This document shows, in pieces, positions 12,854 to 20,476 of a stretch of DNA of 64,000 nt. The notes under the pieces were generated by a model, which searched no databases, was not told the DNA's origin, and saw nothing but the letters and a program-made list of their open reading frames with translations. The stretch covers positions 1 to 64,000 of the forward strand of contig NC_013894.1 of NCBI RefSeq assembly GCF_000025605.1, in the 5' to 3' direction. The position numbers and the translations under genes were made by a program. The first letter of the stretch is position 1. Each line of letters begins with the position of its first letter. This stretch comes from Thermocrinis albus DSM 14484. GTDB taxonomy: Bacteria; Aquificota; Aquificia; Aquificales; Aquificaceae.

Positions 12854-14313
12854 GAGACTGGGTTAGCGCTTCTGCCGCAGTTGGTCTTTTAAAAGCTTTA
12901 GAAAAGTTAGGTCAAGAGCCGAAGGAGTTTATAGATGGTAACTCCCTTATCTTTGAAGAGAAAGACATTATAGAGATTTTCCCTTCTGCTTTTACAAAAA
13001 AACTTATAGATGTTTCAAGTCAGAAGAACCCTAAAAAAGACTCCTTTGTAGATCGTGCCTATTCTGTACTTTCTTTTCTTCAAAAAAATTTTTACTCTAA
13101 CAGTCCATTGAGCAATCCATCTTCTGTTCCAAAGAGACTTGAGGAGAAGAGTAAGGAGTTGGAAGATCTGTACAGGTCAGACCCAGATAAGGCGGTTTTT
13201 GAGCTCGTCAAGCGCTTTGTTGGTGATACGTTTAAAAAGATTCTGGAGAGAGAGACGTCGGACCACACTTGCTTCTTCTGCGGAGAAAGAAAAGCCAGCA
13301 TTCATAACGGTGAGCCCAAAACCTTTGAAGCAACTAACTTTACGCCTCTTTCTGCAAGTCCCAATACGGTGGAAAACTTATTTTATAACGGTAAAAACAA
13401 CCTTTATCTTTGTTCTGTATGCGAGATAGTCTTTTATTTCGCAGGCTTCGGTTTTACTAAAGTGGATAAAATGGATAATAGGTATATTTTCGCTTATGTC
13501 TCCGATATTAAAGAAACTTTAAGACTTAACAATACTTTAGAATACTATAAAGGCTTCAATAAGGAGTTTGTAACGTCCTTTTTGAAAGATTTGGAGCATC
13601 ATAAATCAAGATGGATCCTTGAAAATATATATATTGTTGAAGTCGAAAAAGTATCTAAAGTACAATCAAATATCTACTCCTTTTCTATACCACCGAGGGT
13701 AGCAAAGGCTATGAAGGAATACCTCCCTAAATATCCTAAAACTCTCGAACCTGTTTTCAATGAATTTCTGAAATATATTTATTTTGGAAGAAGTCTTTAC
13801 CAGCTTCTTTTTGAGATTCTCTATGGATATTTTCACGAAGAAGAACTGCCAGATTCTAAAGATTCTAAAAAAATAACAGATGCTTTAAGATTAGGTATGA
13901 GGCTAGCAAAAGGAAATAAAGGTTTGTATCCTTCTCTTCTTTTCCTATCAAAATTTCAGGAGGTGGTAGAGATGAAAGACAAGAGCTTTGTAGAAAAGCA
14001 AGTAGGATGGGCGTATAGGGAAGGTCTCCAGTTGAAAAATGCCCTCCTTAAAGAGTTAGGTGATAAGGCACTGGACAGAATAAGATCCATATCTTACAGT
14101 ATTCTTGAGGCTATAAGAAGGAGGGATATAGATGCTTTTCAACAGAATCTAATAAGAGCCTACCTTAGTGTGGAGAGGGAAATACCGAGAGTTTTCGTTG
14201 ATGCTCTTAAGGATGAAAGCTTTAGCCGGATAGCTTACGCCTTTCTTATAGGATTAAACGGCACAGAGAGGAGAGAAGAAGATGGAGGAGAAGCTGAGGA
14301 AACTATGGGCTAA
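12832..14313 (+). CDS. cas8: Cas8 (Cst1/Cas8a1-like) large subunit of type I-B Cascade
   Basis: This 493-residue protein is assigned by its place between cas5 and cas3, its size, and a zinc-finger insert: CFFCGE (C147, C150) with CSVC (C194, C197). That insert is typical of the Cst1-type large subunits, which recognise the PAM on foreign DNA and recruit Cas3. Sequence conservation in this family is low, so the exact subtype is less certain than the role. It overlaps cas5 by 22 bp and cas3 by 32 bp. Confidence 0.8.
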   Translation: MVVRFYVRDWVSASAAVGLLKALEKLGQEPKEFIDGNSLIFEEKDIIEIFPSAFTKKLIDVSSQKNPKKDSFVDRAYSVLSFLQKNFYSNSPLSNPSSVPKRLEEKSKELEDLYRSDPDKAVFELVKRFVGDTFKKILERETSDHTCFFCGERKASIHNGEPKTFEATNFTPLSASPNTVENLFYNGKNNLYLCSVCEIVFYFAGFGFTKVDKMDNRYIFAYVSDIKETLRLNNTLEYYKGFNKEFVTSFLKDLEHHKSRWILENIYIVEVEKVSKVQSNIYSFSIPPRVAKAMKEYLPKYPKTLEPVFNEFLKYIYFGRSLYQLLFEILYGYFHEEELPDSKDSKKITDALRLGMRLAKGNKGLYPSLLFLSKFQEVVEMKDKSFVEKQVGWAYREGLQLKNALLKELGDKALDRIRSISYSILEAIRRRDIDAFQQNLIRAYLSVEREIPRVFVDALKDESFSRIAYAFLIGLNGTERREEDGGEAEETMG

Positions 14314-15988
14314 GTCAGACGGCACAACGATAAGGGAACACACCGACAAACTTCTTGAAAATCTTAAAAAACTCAAAGAAGAATATGGAGACATCATAGA
14401 GGAGAGAATACCCGATAGTATGAGAGGTATTTTTTGGCAAACTCTTGAACTAGCTTGTGAGTATCATGACTATGGAAAGGTGCACTATCACTTTCAGAGG
14501 AAGTTGGGAAACAAAAATGTAAAACCTCCTAAAGGTAACCTACCTGAGGTGAGACATAACCTTCTTTCCCCGGCCTTTTTGCCAGAAGACAAAAATCCTG
14601 TTGTGAGAAAACTGGCCGCTCTTGCTATAATTCATCATCATAAGCATGACGCAGGAAAAGAAGAAGTAGAAAAAGTTCGTGAGGTTCTTGAAAAAGAGTT
14701 TGGAAAAGAGCTGAACTATAAAAACCTGATAAAGTATAGGGAAGATGAAATTCTTAAAAAGTTAGCTAAAGACAAAAATTTGGAGGAGGAAAGTGTTAGA
14801 AAGTTTTACATAATGTTAAAGGGTTGCCTTCTTAGAATAGATCATGCCAGCAGTAATAGGTATTCTCCTTATGTTGAAACTTACAGGAAGAAGGAGCCTG
14901 AAGGAAAAGTTAGAGAGTTTTTGCAAGGTAAAGGTTCAGATTTTAACGATCTTCAGAGGTTTGTCCTAGAAAACAGAGAGGACAATCTGCTTGTGTGTGC
15001 TTCTACCGGGTATGGAAAGACAGAAGCCGGTTTTATTTTTCTGAAGGATAAAGGTTTCTTTACGTTACCCGTCAGAGTTTCTGCCAACGCCATTTACGAA
15101 AGGGCAAAGGGAGTTTTCGGGGAAGAACTGGTGGGGCTTCTTCACAGCAGTTCTCTATTGGAGATGGCACTAAGTGAGGATGAAGCTAACATATACTGGG
15201 AAAACATCGTACTTGATCACCATCTTACTAGCAACTTTGCCAAGCCTATAATAGTATCCACTCCGGATCAAATAGTTCCCTTTGTTTTTAAATATCCCGG
15301 TTACGAAAAAATAGCGTCTCTTTTAGCTTATTCTCGTGTAGTTTTTGATGAACCTCAACTGTTTGAACCACACACCATGGGTTTTCTGGTAAAAGGTATC
15401 GAAAAGATAACTCATCTGGGTGGTAAGGTTATGGTTATGTCAGCTACTCTTCCTCCCTTTGTGGAAGAGGATCTAAGCTTTCTAGATTTTAAAAGGGGAA
15501 AGTTTCTCACAGAGAAAGTCAGGCATAACCTAAAAGTTGTCCGTCGATCAATAAAGGACTTTACCGAGGATATAAGAAGATTAGCGGAGGAAGGAAAGGT
15601 TCTCGTAGTAGTGAACACTGTTAAGAGAGCTATAGAACTTAAGGAAATTCTCCCTGAGGCTCAACTTCTTCACTCCCAGTTTATACTTAAGGACAGAAAA
15701 GAGAAAGAAAAACAGATAAAAGACTTCTTCGATAATGCAGACAGAGGTGTGTGGATAACTACTCAGTTGGCAGAAGTCTCCTTGGACCTTGATGCTGACT
15801 TTTTGGTAACGGAGCTTTCTACTGTGGATTCTCTCCTTCAGAGGATGGGGAGAGTGAACCGAAGGGGCGAAAAACCTGTGGACAATCCTAATGTTTTTAT
15901 CCTTACCGAAGAGTGTTCGGGAATAGGTAGCGTTTACAGGGAGGCTATACACGAGGAAACGAAAAAATTTTTAGAGATGGACCAATAA
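14282..15988 (+). CDS. cas3: Cas3 helicase-nuclease, main reading frame (ends prematurely)
   Basis: This 568-residue frame holds an N-terminal HD nuclease (YHDYGKVHYHF near 61-71; IIHHHKHDAG further on) and a DExD/H helicase. The helicase motifs are STGYGKT (241-247), DEPQ (356-359), the SATLPP motif III, and QRMGRVNRRGE motif VI. Cas3 is recruited by Cascade to nick and unwind target DNA. All core motifs precede the stop at 15986. The C-terminal tail normally following TKKFL is encoded in the -1 frame (see next entry), so the product is either truncated or completed by frameshifting. Confidence 0.9.
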   Translation: MEEKLRKLWAKSDGTTIREHTDKLLENLKKLKEEYGDIIEERIPDSMRGIFWQTLELACEYHDYGKVHYHFQRKLGNKNVKPPKGNLPEVRHNLLSPAFLPEDKNPVVRKLAALAIIHHHKHDAGKEEVEKVREVLEKEFGKELNYKNLIKYREDEILKKLAKDKNLEEESVRKFYIMLKGCLLRIDHASSNRYSPYVETYRKKEPEGKVREFLQGKGSDFNDLQRFVLENREDNLLVCASTGYGKTEAGFIFLKDKGFFTLPVRVSANAIYERAKGVFGEELVGLLHSSSLLEMALSEDEANIYWENIVLDHHLTSNFAKPIIVSTPDQIVPFVFKYPGYEKIASLLAYSRVVFDEPQLFEPHTMGFLVKGIEKITHLGGKVMVMSATLPPFVEEDLSFLDFKRGKFLTEKVRHNLKVVRRSIKDFTEDIRRLAEEGKVLVVVNTVKRAIELKEILPEAQLLHSQFILKDRKEKEKQIKDFFDNADRGVWITTQLAEVSLDLDADFLVTELSTVDSLLQRMGRVNRRGEKPVDNPNVFILTEECSGIGSVYREAIHEETKKFLEMDQ

Positions 15989-16398
15989 CTGAGGAGGAAA
16001 AACTGGGACTCTTAGAGGAGGTGTATAAAAAAATAGAGCAGGTAGATCAGGGCTACAAAGAGGATTACGAAAAGGCAAAGAGATTTATAGAAAACTTATG
16101 GGAAACTGACGAGTTTAAGTTGGAAAAAGAAAAAGCTCAGCAGCTTTTTAGAGATATATACACAAAGACAATTATTCCTGAAAAGTTCAGAGATGATCTG
16201 GAGAATGGACTTTTAAGAGAGTACATAAACAACAAGGATATTAATGAGAGGGTAAAACTTTTGGCAAAAATTCTTGAGTACACTGTGACAGTTCCTGAAT
16301 ATAAAGTGAAGGGGAAACAACTGGAACCTGTTAAGAAACTGAAAAATGTGTACTGGCTTAAGGCGGATTATTCTCCTGAGACAGGAGTAGAGGAGTAG
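15931..16398 (+). pseudogene. cas3: Cas3 C-terminal tail in the -1 frame
   Basis: After the cas3 stop, the -1 frame (open from 15931) continues with RDGPITEEEKLGLLEEVY and about 125 helical residues to 16398. This is the kind of tail expected after a Cas3 HEETKKFL segment. The crossover lies in 15931-15985 and includes an A6T5 run (15962-15972). A one-base loss, sequencing error, transcriptional slippage or programmed -1 frameshift would all explain it. Independent translation is less likely: the GTG at 16021 directly abuts its AGAGGAGG, which is too close. The fragment itself has no catalytic motifs. Confidence 0.75.
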
Positions 16399-16422: not shown

Positions 16423-16459
16423 TTGACAATATATCGTCGTTAAAGTATAATATATCGTC
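16423..16459 (+). promoter_or_regulatory. Leaderless-type promoter with two direct repeats before the mod regulator
   Basis: A consensus promoter, TTGACA (16423-16428), 17-bp spacer and TATAAT (16446-16451), ends 8 nt before the ATG at 16460, so the mRNA probably starts at or near the start codon. The 11-bp word AATATATCGTC occurs at 16428-16438 and again at 16449-16459, exactly 21 bp (two helical turns) apart. The copies overlap the -35/-10 region and the start site, as expected for an autorepression operator. Confidence 0.75.
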
Positions 16460-17449
16460 ATGCGCAACAGGGTGAAGGAGCTGAGAGAAAGGGCGGGGCT
16501 TTCTCAGGAGGAGCTGGCGAAGCTCTGTAAGATTCCGAGAACTACCTTAAGCGCCATAGAGAGGGAAATGGTGGTTCCTTCTGTAAGCCATGCTATCCGT
16601 ATAGCCAGAGCTTTGGGTTGTAGTGTAGAGGAACTCTTTCCCCAAGAGGAAGTCCTACGTGTATCTCCCACCTTGAGGGAAGGTACCACCTTCGTGGCAG
16701 GATACGTAGGAGAGAGTATAGTTTTACACCCTTCCTTTTCATCTTTTGTGGGTCATCTCATACCGGACGGTGTGTTGAAAGAGGGAGAACCTCGGTTCTT
16801 TAACAGAGGTTACCTCCATAAAACCATTTTCTTTGCAGGGTGTGATCCGTTATTCAGTAGCCTTCACCACTCCTTTAAGGAAAAAGGTTACCGTGTAGTA
16901 CCTTATCATGCTAACAACACAGAAGCTCTTTATCTTCTCAAAGAGGGCTTCCTTCACGTAGCAGGTGTCCATTTGGGAACCTATCAAGAGACCTTAGAGA
17001 TGCTTAAAGAGAAAGTAGGTAGGGGGTTCTTGGTGCTGTCTGCTTACGCTTGGAAGGAAGGAATCATCAGCAGGGATCCTGTAGAGTCTTTGCAAGAAGT
17101 CAAGAGAGGTGTTTGGTTAGTTAGAGAAAAGGGTAGCGGTGTGAGGGATGTTTTTGACAGGTATATAGAAGCCAAGGTATACAGAGAGGTGAGGGGTACT
17201 CATTGGGATATGGCGAACCTTATCTTCAATGGTCTGGGTGATTACACGGTGGTACCTCTGTCTGTTGCACTGGAGCGTGGGCTTAGTTTTTATAGCCTAA
17301 GAGAGTCCGATTATGTATTGGTTATAAGAGAAGATACCGATCCACTTTTCGTAAAATCCCTAAGAGAAGAGTTAAAAAAGCTTACAGGTATGGCTCTTTT
17401 ACCTTTAGGATACACACCTAAGAGAAAAGTAGAGGAGGTAGTGCTATGA
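16460..17449 (+). CDS. HTH regulator fused to a periplasmic-binding-like domain, heads mod operon
   Basis: Residues 1-60 are an XRE-type helix-turn-helix (RVKELRERAGLSQEELAKLC, then IPRTTLSAIERE). The remainder, about 75-320, resembles the PBP-like domain of one-component regulators found beside molybdate/tungstate transporters. It lacks a signal peptide and so acts in the cytoplasm. Binding of the oxyanion or of a molybdopterin-related ligand is inferred from the neighbours; its stop overlaps modA as ATGA. It probably controls its own operon through the direct repeats at 16428-16459. It takes the place of ModE, which is absent here. Confidence 0.82.
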   Translation: MRNRVKELRERAGLSQEELAKLCKIPRTTLSAIEREMVVPSVSHAIRIARALGCSVEELFPQEEVLRVSPTLREGTTFVAGYVGESIVLHPSFSSFVGHLIPDGVLKEGEPRFFNRGYLHKTIFFAGCDPLFSSLHHSFKEKGYRVVPYHANNTEALYLLKEGFLHVAGVHLGTYQETLEMLKEKVGRGFLVLSAYAWKEGIISRDPVESLQEVKRGVWLVREKGSGVRDVFDRYIEAKVYREVRGTHWDMANLIFNGLGDYTVVPLSVALERGLSFYSLRESDYVLVIREDTDPLFVKSLREELKKLTGMALLPLGYTPKRKVEEVVL

Positions 17450-18189
17450 GGGTATTGCTGTTTTTGCTGTGGACCTTTTTGGCCTTTTCTGGGGAGATAA
17501 GGGTGTTTGCTGCTGCAGATTTGCAGCATCCTCTTTCTGAGATTGTCAGGCTTTATGAGAGGAGGCATCCTCAAGATAAGGTAGTTCTTACCTTTGGTTC
17601 GTCAGGAAAAGGTGCTACTCAGATAAGACAGGGGGCACCCTTTGATATCTATATGGCCGCCAACATGAAGTTTGTGGAAGATCTGTATAAGGAGGGATAC
17701 GTGGTGACACCTCCTAAGCCTTATGCGGTAGGTAAGCTGGTGATATGGGTAAGAAAAGACAGCGGTCTTGATCCCTCTAAGTTCCCTCAGGTTCTTTTAG
17801 ATGATCGTGTCAAGAAGATAGCTATAGCAGACTGGAAAGTGGCACCTTACGGTGCAGCGGCCAAAGAACTTCTTGAAAGAACTGGTTTGTGGGACAGAGT
17901 GAAGGAAAAATTGGTTATAGGTGAGAATATATCTCAAACAGCCTCTTTTGTTTTCTCGGGTGCTGCAGATGTAGGGCTGATATCCTTGTCACAGGCCTTA
18001 TCCAAAGAGCTGTCTGCCAAGGGTATCTATTGGGTGGTACCAAAAGACAAGTACACACCCATAGTACAAGGTTATGGAATAACTAAACGGGGATCCGAGA
18101 AGCCGGAAGTAAGGCGTTTCTATGAGTTTATTCTGTCCAAGGAAGCCAGAGAAGTTTTCAAAAAGTACGGCTTTGATGAACCATACTGA
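17446..18189 (+). CDS. modA: Molybdate/tungstate ABC transporter, periplasmic binding protein
   Basis: This 247-residue protein starts with a short hydrophobic signal peptide (MRVLLFLLWTFLAFSGE). It then shows ModA motifs: AAADLQHPLSEI, FGSSGKGATQIRQGAPFDIY, and the late GAADVGLISLSQALS. ModA captures the oxyanion in the periplasm for ModBC. Sequence alone does not decide between molybdate and tungstate; a hyperthermophile could use either. It is translationally coupled to the upstream regulator. Confidence 0.92.
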   Translation: MRVLLFLLWTFLAFSGEIRVFAAADLQHPLSEIVRLYERRHPQDKVVLTFGSSGKGATQIRQGAPFDIYMAANMKFVEDLYKEGYVVTPPKPYAVGKLVIWVRKDSGLDPSKFPQVLLDDRVKKIAIADWKVAPYGAAAKELLERTGLWDRVKEKLVIGENISQTASFVFSGAADVGLISLSQALSKELSAKGIYWVVPKDKYTPIVQGYGITKRGSEKPEVRRFYEFILSKEAREVFKKYGFDEPY

Positions 18190-18219: not shown

Positions 18220-18897
18220 ATGCCTGATGAAGTACTCACCGCCATGTATCTCACCCTCAAACTGGCTTTTATAACATCCTTCCTTCTTCTTTTCATATCC
18301 ATACCTCTGGCTTACATAATAGCTTTTTCAAAAGGACGGTGGGTCTCTTTTCTGGAGGCTGTTGTGAGCTTACCCTTAGTTCTTCCTCCCACAGTGCTGG
18401 GCTTTTATCTTCTTTTACTTATGAGCAAAAAGGGTCCAATAGGTGCTGTTTTTTACCAGCTTACTGGACATCAGTTAGTTTTTCACTTTGAAGGTCTTGT
18501 GCTGGCATCGGTAATATACAGTTTGCCCATGATGGTTCATCCTATAGCTTCCGGGTTTGCTTCTGTACCTAAAAGACTTATAGAAGCCAGTTATAGTTTA
18601 GGGAAAAACCCCCTCCAGACGCTTTTTTTGGTAATACTTCCCAACAGCAAAGGTTCAATTCTATCGGGCATAATACTTTCTTTTACTCACACGTTGGGAG
18701 AGTTCGGTGTGGTTCTCATGGTGGGTGGCAACATAGAAGGTGAGACAAGGGTGATGTCGGTTCTCATTTATGACAGTGTGGAAGCTCTAGACTACAAAAC
18801 CGCCCATATTCTTTCTCTTATCATGCTTAGCTTTTCCTTTTTTAGTTTATTTATGCTGTACTATGTGCTACGCCATAAGCCTAAGGTCCTGTCATGA
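18220..18897 (+). CDS. modB: Molybdate/tungstate ABC transporter permease
   Basis: This 225-residue membrane protein has about five or six hydrophobic segments and the permease loop EASYSLGKNPLQTLFLVILP (EAA motif), which docks on the ATPase. The strong GGAGGT lies 6 nt before the ATG. It follows modA by 30 bp and overlaps modC by 4 bp (ATGA), so ModABC is made as one unit. Confidence 0.93.
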   Translation: MPDEVLTAMYLTLKLAFITSFLLLFISIPLAYIIAFSKGRWVSFLEAVVSLPLVLPPTVLGFYLLLLMSKKGPIGAVFYQLTGHQLVFHFEGLVLASVIYSLPMMVHPIASGFASVPKRLIEASYSLGKNPLQTLFLVILPNSKGSILSGIILSFTHTLGEFGVVLMVGGNIEGETRVMSVLIYDSVEALDYKTAHILSLIMLSFSFFSLFMLYYVLRHKPKVLS

Positions 18898-19754
18898 TAT
18901 ACCTGCGTGCCAAGAAGAAGTTACTGGGATCTAAGGGTGAGTTCTGGTTAGACGTGGAACTGAAGATAGAGGACGGGATTACTGTCATATTTGGGCCATC
19001 CGGTTCGGGTAAAACCACCATCCTGAGAATACTGGCAGGATTAGAAAAACCCGACGAAGGTTTTCTGGAGGTTGACGGAGAGATATGGATGGACACCAAG
19101 AGGGGTATATATCTCCCGCCCTACAGAAGAAGGGTGGGTTTTGTCTTTCAGGAAGATACTCTCTTTCCACACCTTACCGTTATGGAGAACATCCTGTTTG
19201 GTATGGATAAAAAGGATAAAGGGAGGGCTTTGCAGTTACTCAGGAAAGTAAATATGGAACCGCTGAAGGACAGCTACCCTTACCAACTTTCGGGTGGCCA
19301 GAGACAGAGAGTGGCTCTTCTTAGAGCCATAGCCAGAGATCCGCGCATAATGTTACTGGATGAGCCTTTCTCTGCTCTTGATGAAAATATGAGATCTTTC
19401 CTCCAAGAGGAAGTGAAGGCTCTTCAAAGGCAGATCTCTATCCCCATGCTTATGGTGACTCATTCGGTGGAAGAAGTTTTTAAGATGGCAGACAGAGTTT
19501 ACATAATTGAGAACGGCCGGATAATAAAGGAGGGAACACCTCACGAAGTGTTCTTACCTACTCAGGTGTCTGCCCGTATGAGTTTTGTAGCTACAGTTCT
19601 GGATGTAAAAGAACAGGGTAATCTGCAGCTCGTAACCATAAAATCCGATATGGGAATATCTCAGATCCTGTGCCGTGATCTGTCCCTTAAGGTAGGAGAC
19701 AAGATAATGGTTTATGTGAAAGCATTTTCGCCCTCTGTGGAAAAGAACTCTTAA
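18894..19754 (+). CDS. modC: Molybdate/tungstate ABC transporter ATPase
   Basis: A full ABC ATPase of 286 residues: Walker A GPSGSGKTT, Q-loop FQEDTLFPH, signature LSGGQRQR, Walker B RIMLLDEPFSALDE and switch His in VTHSVEE. The last 65 or so residues look like a single, short TOBE/Mop-type domain, smaller than in classical ModC, so oxyanion sensing by the ATPase may be reduced. It energises import through ModB. Confidence 0.92.
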   Translation: MIYLRAKKKLLGSKGEFWLDVELKIEDGITVIFGPSGSGKTTILRILAGLEKPDEGFLEVDGEIWMDTKRGIYLPPYRRRVGFVFQEDTLFPHLTVMENILFGMDKKDKGRALQLLRKVNMEPLKDSYPYQLSGGQRQRVALLRAIARDPRIMLLDEPFSALDENMRSFLQEEVKALQRQISIPMLMVTHSVEEVFKMADRVYIIENGRIIKEGTPHEVFLPTQVSARMSFVATVLDVKEQGNLQLVTIKSDMGISQILCRDLSLKVGDKIMVYVKAFSPSVEKNS

Positions 19755-19807: not shown

Positions 19808-20476
19808 ATGAGACTAGTTTCGGAACTGGAAGAGACCAAACAACTGGTTTTAAGAATGGCCACTCTGGTAAACACCGCTATAGAGAAAGCTATAGAGTCC
19901 CTCAACAAACAGGACACTTTGTTAGCCCAGGAAGTGATAAAGGGTGATGATGAGATAGACAAACTTGAGGTGGAGATAGAGAAAAGATGTGTGAGGATGA
20001 TAGCCCTTTACCAACCGGAAGCGGGGGATCTCAGACTCATAATGGGTATATACAAGATGGTGTCGGACCTTGAGAGGATAGGAGACGAGGCAGAGAACAT
20101 AGCGGAGCGTTCGCTACTTTTGGCACAAGAACCACCTCTGAAGCCTTATGTAAACCTCAAAATGATGGCCAACACTGTTAAAGCTATGGTGGAGGATGCT
20201 GTTCTCTCTTTCTTTCACCGAGACACGGACCTGGCCAAAAAGGTGATAGAGAGGGACGATATGGTGGACGAACTTTACCACCAGCTGGAGAGGGAGCTTA
20301 TAACCTACGTTATGGAGGATCCCAGAAACATAAAGAAGGTCATAAGTCTATCTTTTGTGGCAAGACATCTGGAGAGGATGGCGGACCATGCGGAGAACAT
20401 AGCGGAGATGGCCATCTACTGGACGGAGGGAGAGGTGGTGAAACACCAGCACATAAAGGAAAGGAAGGAGGGTTAA
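19808..20476 (+). CDS. phoU: Phosphate-signalling protein PhoU
   Basis: This 222-residue, all-helical protein has the two PhoU repeats, each with a metal-binding E/D-rich motif: VSDLERIGDEAENIAERS (about 83-100) and ARHLERMADHAENIAEMA (about 187-204). PhoU restrains the PhoR kinase and the Pst phosphate importer. Here it stands alone with no pst genes next to it. GGAGGAGGTG precedes the ATG. Confidence 0.95.
   Translation: MRLVSELEETKQLVLRMATLVNTAIEKAIESLNKQDTLLAQEVIKGDDEIDKLEVEIEKRCVRMIALYQPEAGDLRLIMGIYKMVSDLERIGDEAENIAERSLLLAQEPPLKPYVNLKMMANTVKAMVEDAVLSFFHRDTDLAKKVIERDDMVDELYHQLERELITYVMEDPRNIKKVISLSFVARHLERMADHAENIAEMAIYWTEGEVVKHQHIKERKEG

Follow-up and report, generated by a model that had tools for sequence, protein, structure and literature searches.

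In the 64,000-nucleotide stretch of the Thermocrinis albus genome analysed here (the window), a gene for a putative regulator of 329 amino acids is followed by the molybdate-uptake genes modA, modB and modC and preceded by a promoter and two candidate operators, designated O1 and O2. The features are listed below in window coordinates.

16423-16428, plus strand: -35 hexamer TTGACA, part of a promoter that matches the consensus at 12 of 12 positions; kept in nearly all orthologues
16425-16438, no strand assigned: putative operator O1, GACAATATATCGTC, a 14-bp dyad overlapping the -35 hexamer; 6 of 7 dyad pairs match (family consensus GACAATATTTTGTC)
16439-16445, no strand assigned: 7-bp linker between O1 and O2, poorly conserved by column information content
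16446-16459, no strand assigned: putative operator O2, TATAATATATCGTC, an imperfect dyad here (4 of 7 pairs; family consensus TACAATATATTGTC) that contains the -10 hexamer and abuts the ATG
16446-16451, plus strand: -10 hexamer TATAAT, ending 8 nt before the ATG
16460-17449, plus strand: XRE-PBP regulator, 329 aa, with HTH_3 at residues 5-59 and PBP_like at residues 141-292; predicted leaderless start at 16460, conserved in orthologues
17446-18189, plus strand: modA, overlapping the regulator stop (ATGA); TIGR01256 over cut-off
18220-18897, plus strand: modB; TIGR02141 over cut-off
18894-19754, plus strand: modC; TIGR02142 is the best NCBIfam match but scores under its cut-off; the modABC order is kept in relatives

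An earlier sequence-only reading of this locus had called the regulator an HTH/PBP fusion, and the Pfam models confirmed both parts, with PF01381 (HTH_3) scoring 60.1 bits against a cut-off of 23 and PF12727 (PBP_like) 65.5 bits against a cut-off of 27. Among the domain models, other Cro/CI-type entries matched together with HTH_3, and no match was found to HTH_17, ModE or TOBE. A PBP-type sensor domain is visible in an AlphaFold2 model of the protein (mean pLDDT 76); a fold search with this model returned generic PBP relatives and singled out no ligand or oxyanion. The nearest solved relatives of the HTH include C proteins; the CI-type repressors of phages 434, P22 and lambda are related to it as well.

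The order regulator-modABC is retained in the relatives examined. A PhoU-like gene (19808-20476) follows modC and is the same neighbour in many relatives, where it is 78-81% identical; it is an unexplained conserved neighbour of the molybdate-uptake genes. Five relatives (L114, L115, L116, L117 and L123) carry between modA and modB a gene of 132-133 aa, missing from the window operon, which by eye resembles a Mop/ModG-type oxyanion-binding protein. On the other side of the promoter, cas3 (14282-15988) ends in a stop codon. The next ORF (16021-16398) runs on upstream, in a different frame, as GPITEEEKLGLLEEVYKK and seems to encode the C-terminal portion of this Cas3; a single frameshift near ACGAAAAAATTTTTAGAG would account for the split (window 14282-16398), which may reflect a broken gene, an error in sequencing or slippage. 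At 16383-16398, across the stop codon of this ORF, stand two head-to-tail copies of AGGAGTAG.

Two tandem sites over a consensus promoter

The sequence-only reading had described two 11-bp direct repeats 21 bp apart on a consensus promoter. Exact copies of AATATATCGTC are indeed found at 16428-16438 and 16449-16459, with a start-to-start distance of 21 bp. The hexamers TTGACA (16423-16428) and TATAAT (16446-16451), separated by 17 bp, match the sigma-70 consensus at 12 of 12 positions, and the 8 nt described between the -10 hexamer and the ATG at 16460 are as stated. No Shine-Dalgarno sequence precedes this ATG; sites of the GGAGG type stand before the next two genes, modA and modB. With E. 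coli-type initiation, transcription starts about 7 nt past the -10 hexamer, and the predicted leader of the regulator transcript is therefore 0-3 nt long.

A genome search for the 11-mer, proposed together with that reading, recovered the promoter pair and a third copy inside a coding ORF, three copies in all in 1,500,577 bp. Taken alone, the bare repeat is not extraordinary and proves little, because the window contains 8 close exact 11-mer pairs, against about 0.6 expected per window from first-order Markov copies. As judged by comparison of sequences, what raises the site pair above chance is its conservation at the same place before all 14 intact copies of the regulator gene.

A match to the regulator was found in 16 of 64 Aquificaceae genomes, the home genome included: the gene is intact in 14, broken in one (G026) and represented in one (G049) only by fragments at contig ends. 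Identity to the window protein is 40-45% for the 13 other intact regulators. Both sites and the leaderless layout stand before the start codon in 14 of 14 intact copies, in line with the leaderless-type promoter proposed earlier, and the O1-O2 spacing is 21 bp in 13 loci and 22 bp in one. At the window locus the centres of O1 and O2 lie 21 bp apart, which agrees with the claim of two tandem sites two helical turns apart. Throughout the family O1 overlaps the -35 hexamer and O2 contains the -10 hexamer, ending 0-1 nt before the ATG or GTG, so the sites appear placed, as had been suggested, to block the regulator's own promoter.

Across the 14 loci the linker is mostly poorly conserved, and the right halves of O1 and O2, which fall outside the promoter hexamers, are conserved and repeat the reverse complement of GACAA. 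Because these loci share a dyad consensus as well as the conserved right halves, the 11-bp repeats are seen to be the right-hand parts of two tandem 14-bp dyads, and the description as direct repeats, although exact in position, was incomplete. The further remark that direct rather than inverted repeats are unusual for an XRE protein is not supported: the orthologue sites are GACAATATATTGTC-like dyads, an ordinary XRE dimer target, and a tandem pair of them is an ordinary phage-repressor or C-protein arrangement. Both features of an XRE/Cro-CI regulator, an HTH_3 domain and a dyad operator, were found. With two tandem dyad operators in place of direct repeats, the earlier interpretation was mostly right.

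The site pair keeps company with the regulator. In a tandem model scored with each close cluster held out, the 14 regulator promoters reached 24-41 bits, while upstream of 14 modA loci of the same family that lack the regulator no sites were found (up to 1.1 kb upstream, best score 8 bits). Apart from O1/O2, the best score in the rest of the window, on either strand, was about 9 bits. The dyads, their spacing and overlap with the promoter, their conservation, their co-occurrence with the regulator and the gene order are all read from the DNA. In G026, whose regulator gene is a pseudogene, most of O1 is still present, and the start region has been lost together with O2. The six other genomes of the genus (G051-G056) have no regulator; G052, G054 and G056 have modA, two of them with internal stops. 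The pattern of the regulator within the genus suggests patchy loss or gain.

The regulator looks local, since among home-genome sites within 3 mismatches of GACAATATATTGTC only O1 lies within 1 mismatch, and the four candidates fetched beyond O1/O2 (929785, 420544, 1438671 and 895678) all lie inside ORFs. No second convincing site was found among these four candidates for a wider regulon. Two additional near-perfect sites, in G038 and G039, are coding too.

Sites before distant XRE-PBP relatives

XRE-PBP proteins also occur in an Acidobacteriota class and a Verrucomicrobia MAG, with 29-33% identity to the window protein. At the two loci whose surroundings were scanned (L160 and L028), the adjoining genes encode SBP_bac_11 binding proteins, the family of ModA. 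The distant loci retain two 14-bp sites 21-22 bp apart (22 at L174). At L169-L173, DNA of the type TTGACAGTTTTGTATC-N7-GATACTTTTGTATC stands directly before the ATG, with the same geometry and the half-site GATA/TATC (GATA-N6-TATC), and the recognition helix reads SRAA or SRAE. L028 and L026, with an Aquificaceae-type helix (IPRTTISAIE), have GACA-N6-TGTC-type sites 21 bp apart that are shifted downstream, the -10 hexamer falling in the linker and O2 over the start codon. The spacing thus stays when the sites move relative to the promoter, and contact between two bound dimers, rather than the 17-bp promoter spacer alone, probably fixes it. The layout was not seen by eye at L177-L186, which have an SRQT/TRQT-type helix, and L176 offers no usable start at the expected place.

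We put forward the match between helix and half-site (PRTT with GACA, SRAA with GATA) as a hypothesis, not as a demonstrated code: its support comes from some five independent lineages; of the five GATA-type loci, four encode proteins that are at least 92% identical, which leaves about two independent cases; and the half-sites GACA and GATA were chosen after the sequences had been seen. By analogy with the 434 repressor, the outer G of GACA/GATA may be read by Arg27, an invariant residue with which the recognition helix begins.

Proposed autorepression and its alternatives

We consider it likely that O1 and O2 are tandem dyad operators of the XRE-PBP regulator and serve local autorepression of regulator-modABC, with the oxyanion most likely favouring binding. 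Two regulator dimers would sit next to each other on the same face of the DNA at O1 and O2, presumably with cooperativity, and would cover both promoter hexamers, the point where transcription starts and the margin of the start codon. RNA polymerase would then be blocked sterically at a promoter that needs no activator, and the regulator would be repressed together with modABC downstream. The PBP_like domain would sense molybdate or tungstate, and the bound anion, as a co-repressor, would most likely favour DNA binding and shut off uptake when it is plentiful. We infer binding, its cooperativity, the leaderless transcript, the ligand and, by analogy, the polarity; repression under plentiful oxyanion, already proposed in the sequence-only reading, is plausible from the example of ModE. 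That a fully consensus promoter is wholly covered by the sites argues for repression. A point against the operator reading is that O2 is a poor dyad here (4 of 7 pairs), its left half being the -10 hexamer.

The same operators and autorepression might also work with the opposite polarity, the ligand-free dimer binding and a bound molecule releasing it, or with a ligand other than molybdate or tungstate. PBP_like sensors bind varied ligands, the fold search favours no oxyanion and the sequence gives no polarity; however, the linkage to modABC in the relatives examined speaks for these anions, and if abundant substrate switched on the operon for its own uptake, this would run contrary to ModE logic. 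We regard this version as unlikely. A dual control in which a dimer on one site aids RNA polymerase at low dose, and filling of the second site brings repression, is known from C proteins, whose transcript is leaderless and which act through two tandem dyads (PMC4824078); as noted above, they are also close solved relatives of the HTH. Yet the promoter already matches the consensus at 12 of 12 positions, which makes an activator needless, and O1 overlies the -35 hexamer rather than sitting upstream of it; such behaviour seems to us very unlikely here.

It is more improbable still that the sites are mere promoter elements, chance AT-rich repeats or the property of another regulator such as ModE. 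The left halves are explained by TTGACA and TATAAT, the window is not short of close 11-mer pairs, and the AT-rich sites loosely resemble ModE half-sites. Nevertheless, the right halves are conserved outside the hexamers, the sites are absent from the 14 modA loci scored that lack the regulator, and other phyla show this spacing with different half-sites and a different register to the promoter. ModE was rejected as the owner, the genome having no ModE over cut-off (20 bits at the best place, against 98.5).

The proposed autorepression by the XRE-PBP regulator has close parallels. C proteins (such as C.Csp231I, C.PvuII and C.Esp1396I) have two tandem dyads (OL and OR) in their own promoter and a leaderless transcript (PMC4824078). 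They share with the regulator an XRE-type HTH, tandem dyads in the own promoter, a leaderless layout (read from sequence here) and presumed autoregulation, but they are small stand-alone HTH proteins encoded with restriction-modification genes, whereas here a protein of 329 aa with a PBP domain precedes modABC, has its operators on the -35 and -10 hexamers and presumably controls molybdate uptake. Phage 434, P22 and lambda CI-type repressors likewise share the XRE/Cro-CI HTH and, as in 434, tandem 14-bp dyads over a promoter; unlike them, the regulator here belongs to a chromosomal metal-homeostasis operon and has a ligand-sensor domain.

Among metal-oxyanion regulators, ModE has the same presumed role, molybdate control of modABC, but differs in its DNA-binding and sensor (TOBE) domains and in its site, ATCGNTATATA-N6-TATATANCGAT (PMC545781). 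The TaoR family comprises HTH + PBP-like regulators (PMC11980592). It resembles the regulator here in this architecture and in its context of tungstate/molybdate enzymes and transport. TaoR itself reportedly carries an excisionase-like DNA-binding domain of the HTH_17 type, in contrast to XRE/HTH_3 here. A literature search with thin coverage of subscription journals found no published XRE-PBP operator, and the TaoR study may already predict some sites.

C proteins thus provide precedents for tandem operators with leaderless autoregulation, and TaoR for oxyanion regulators of the HTH+PBP kind; to judge from its sequence, the site pair is an ordinary kind of autoregulatory operator, well conserved, on a regulator architecture for which no published operator was found. 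At slightly less than an even chance, XRE-PBP oxyanion regulators may form a family apart from TaoR and ModE, present in three phyla or more, whose operator is imposed by the protein (at a leaderless start, two 14-bp dyads with a spacing of 21 bp) and whose recognition helix follows a readable code (PRTT-GACA, SRAA-GATA), each member mainly controlling its own operon. The sites provide a presumed metal-oxyanion regulator with an operator that can be tested and that makes predictions for single bases, in the genome of a hyperthermophile where the search for ModE was negative. If the helix-to-operator match is true, the targets of other XRE-PBP regulators could be predictable from sequence. A role in ordinary metal homeostasis is likewise suggested for leaderless, self-blocking promoters of the phage-repressor and C-protein type.
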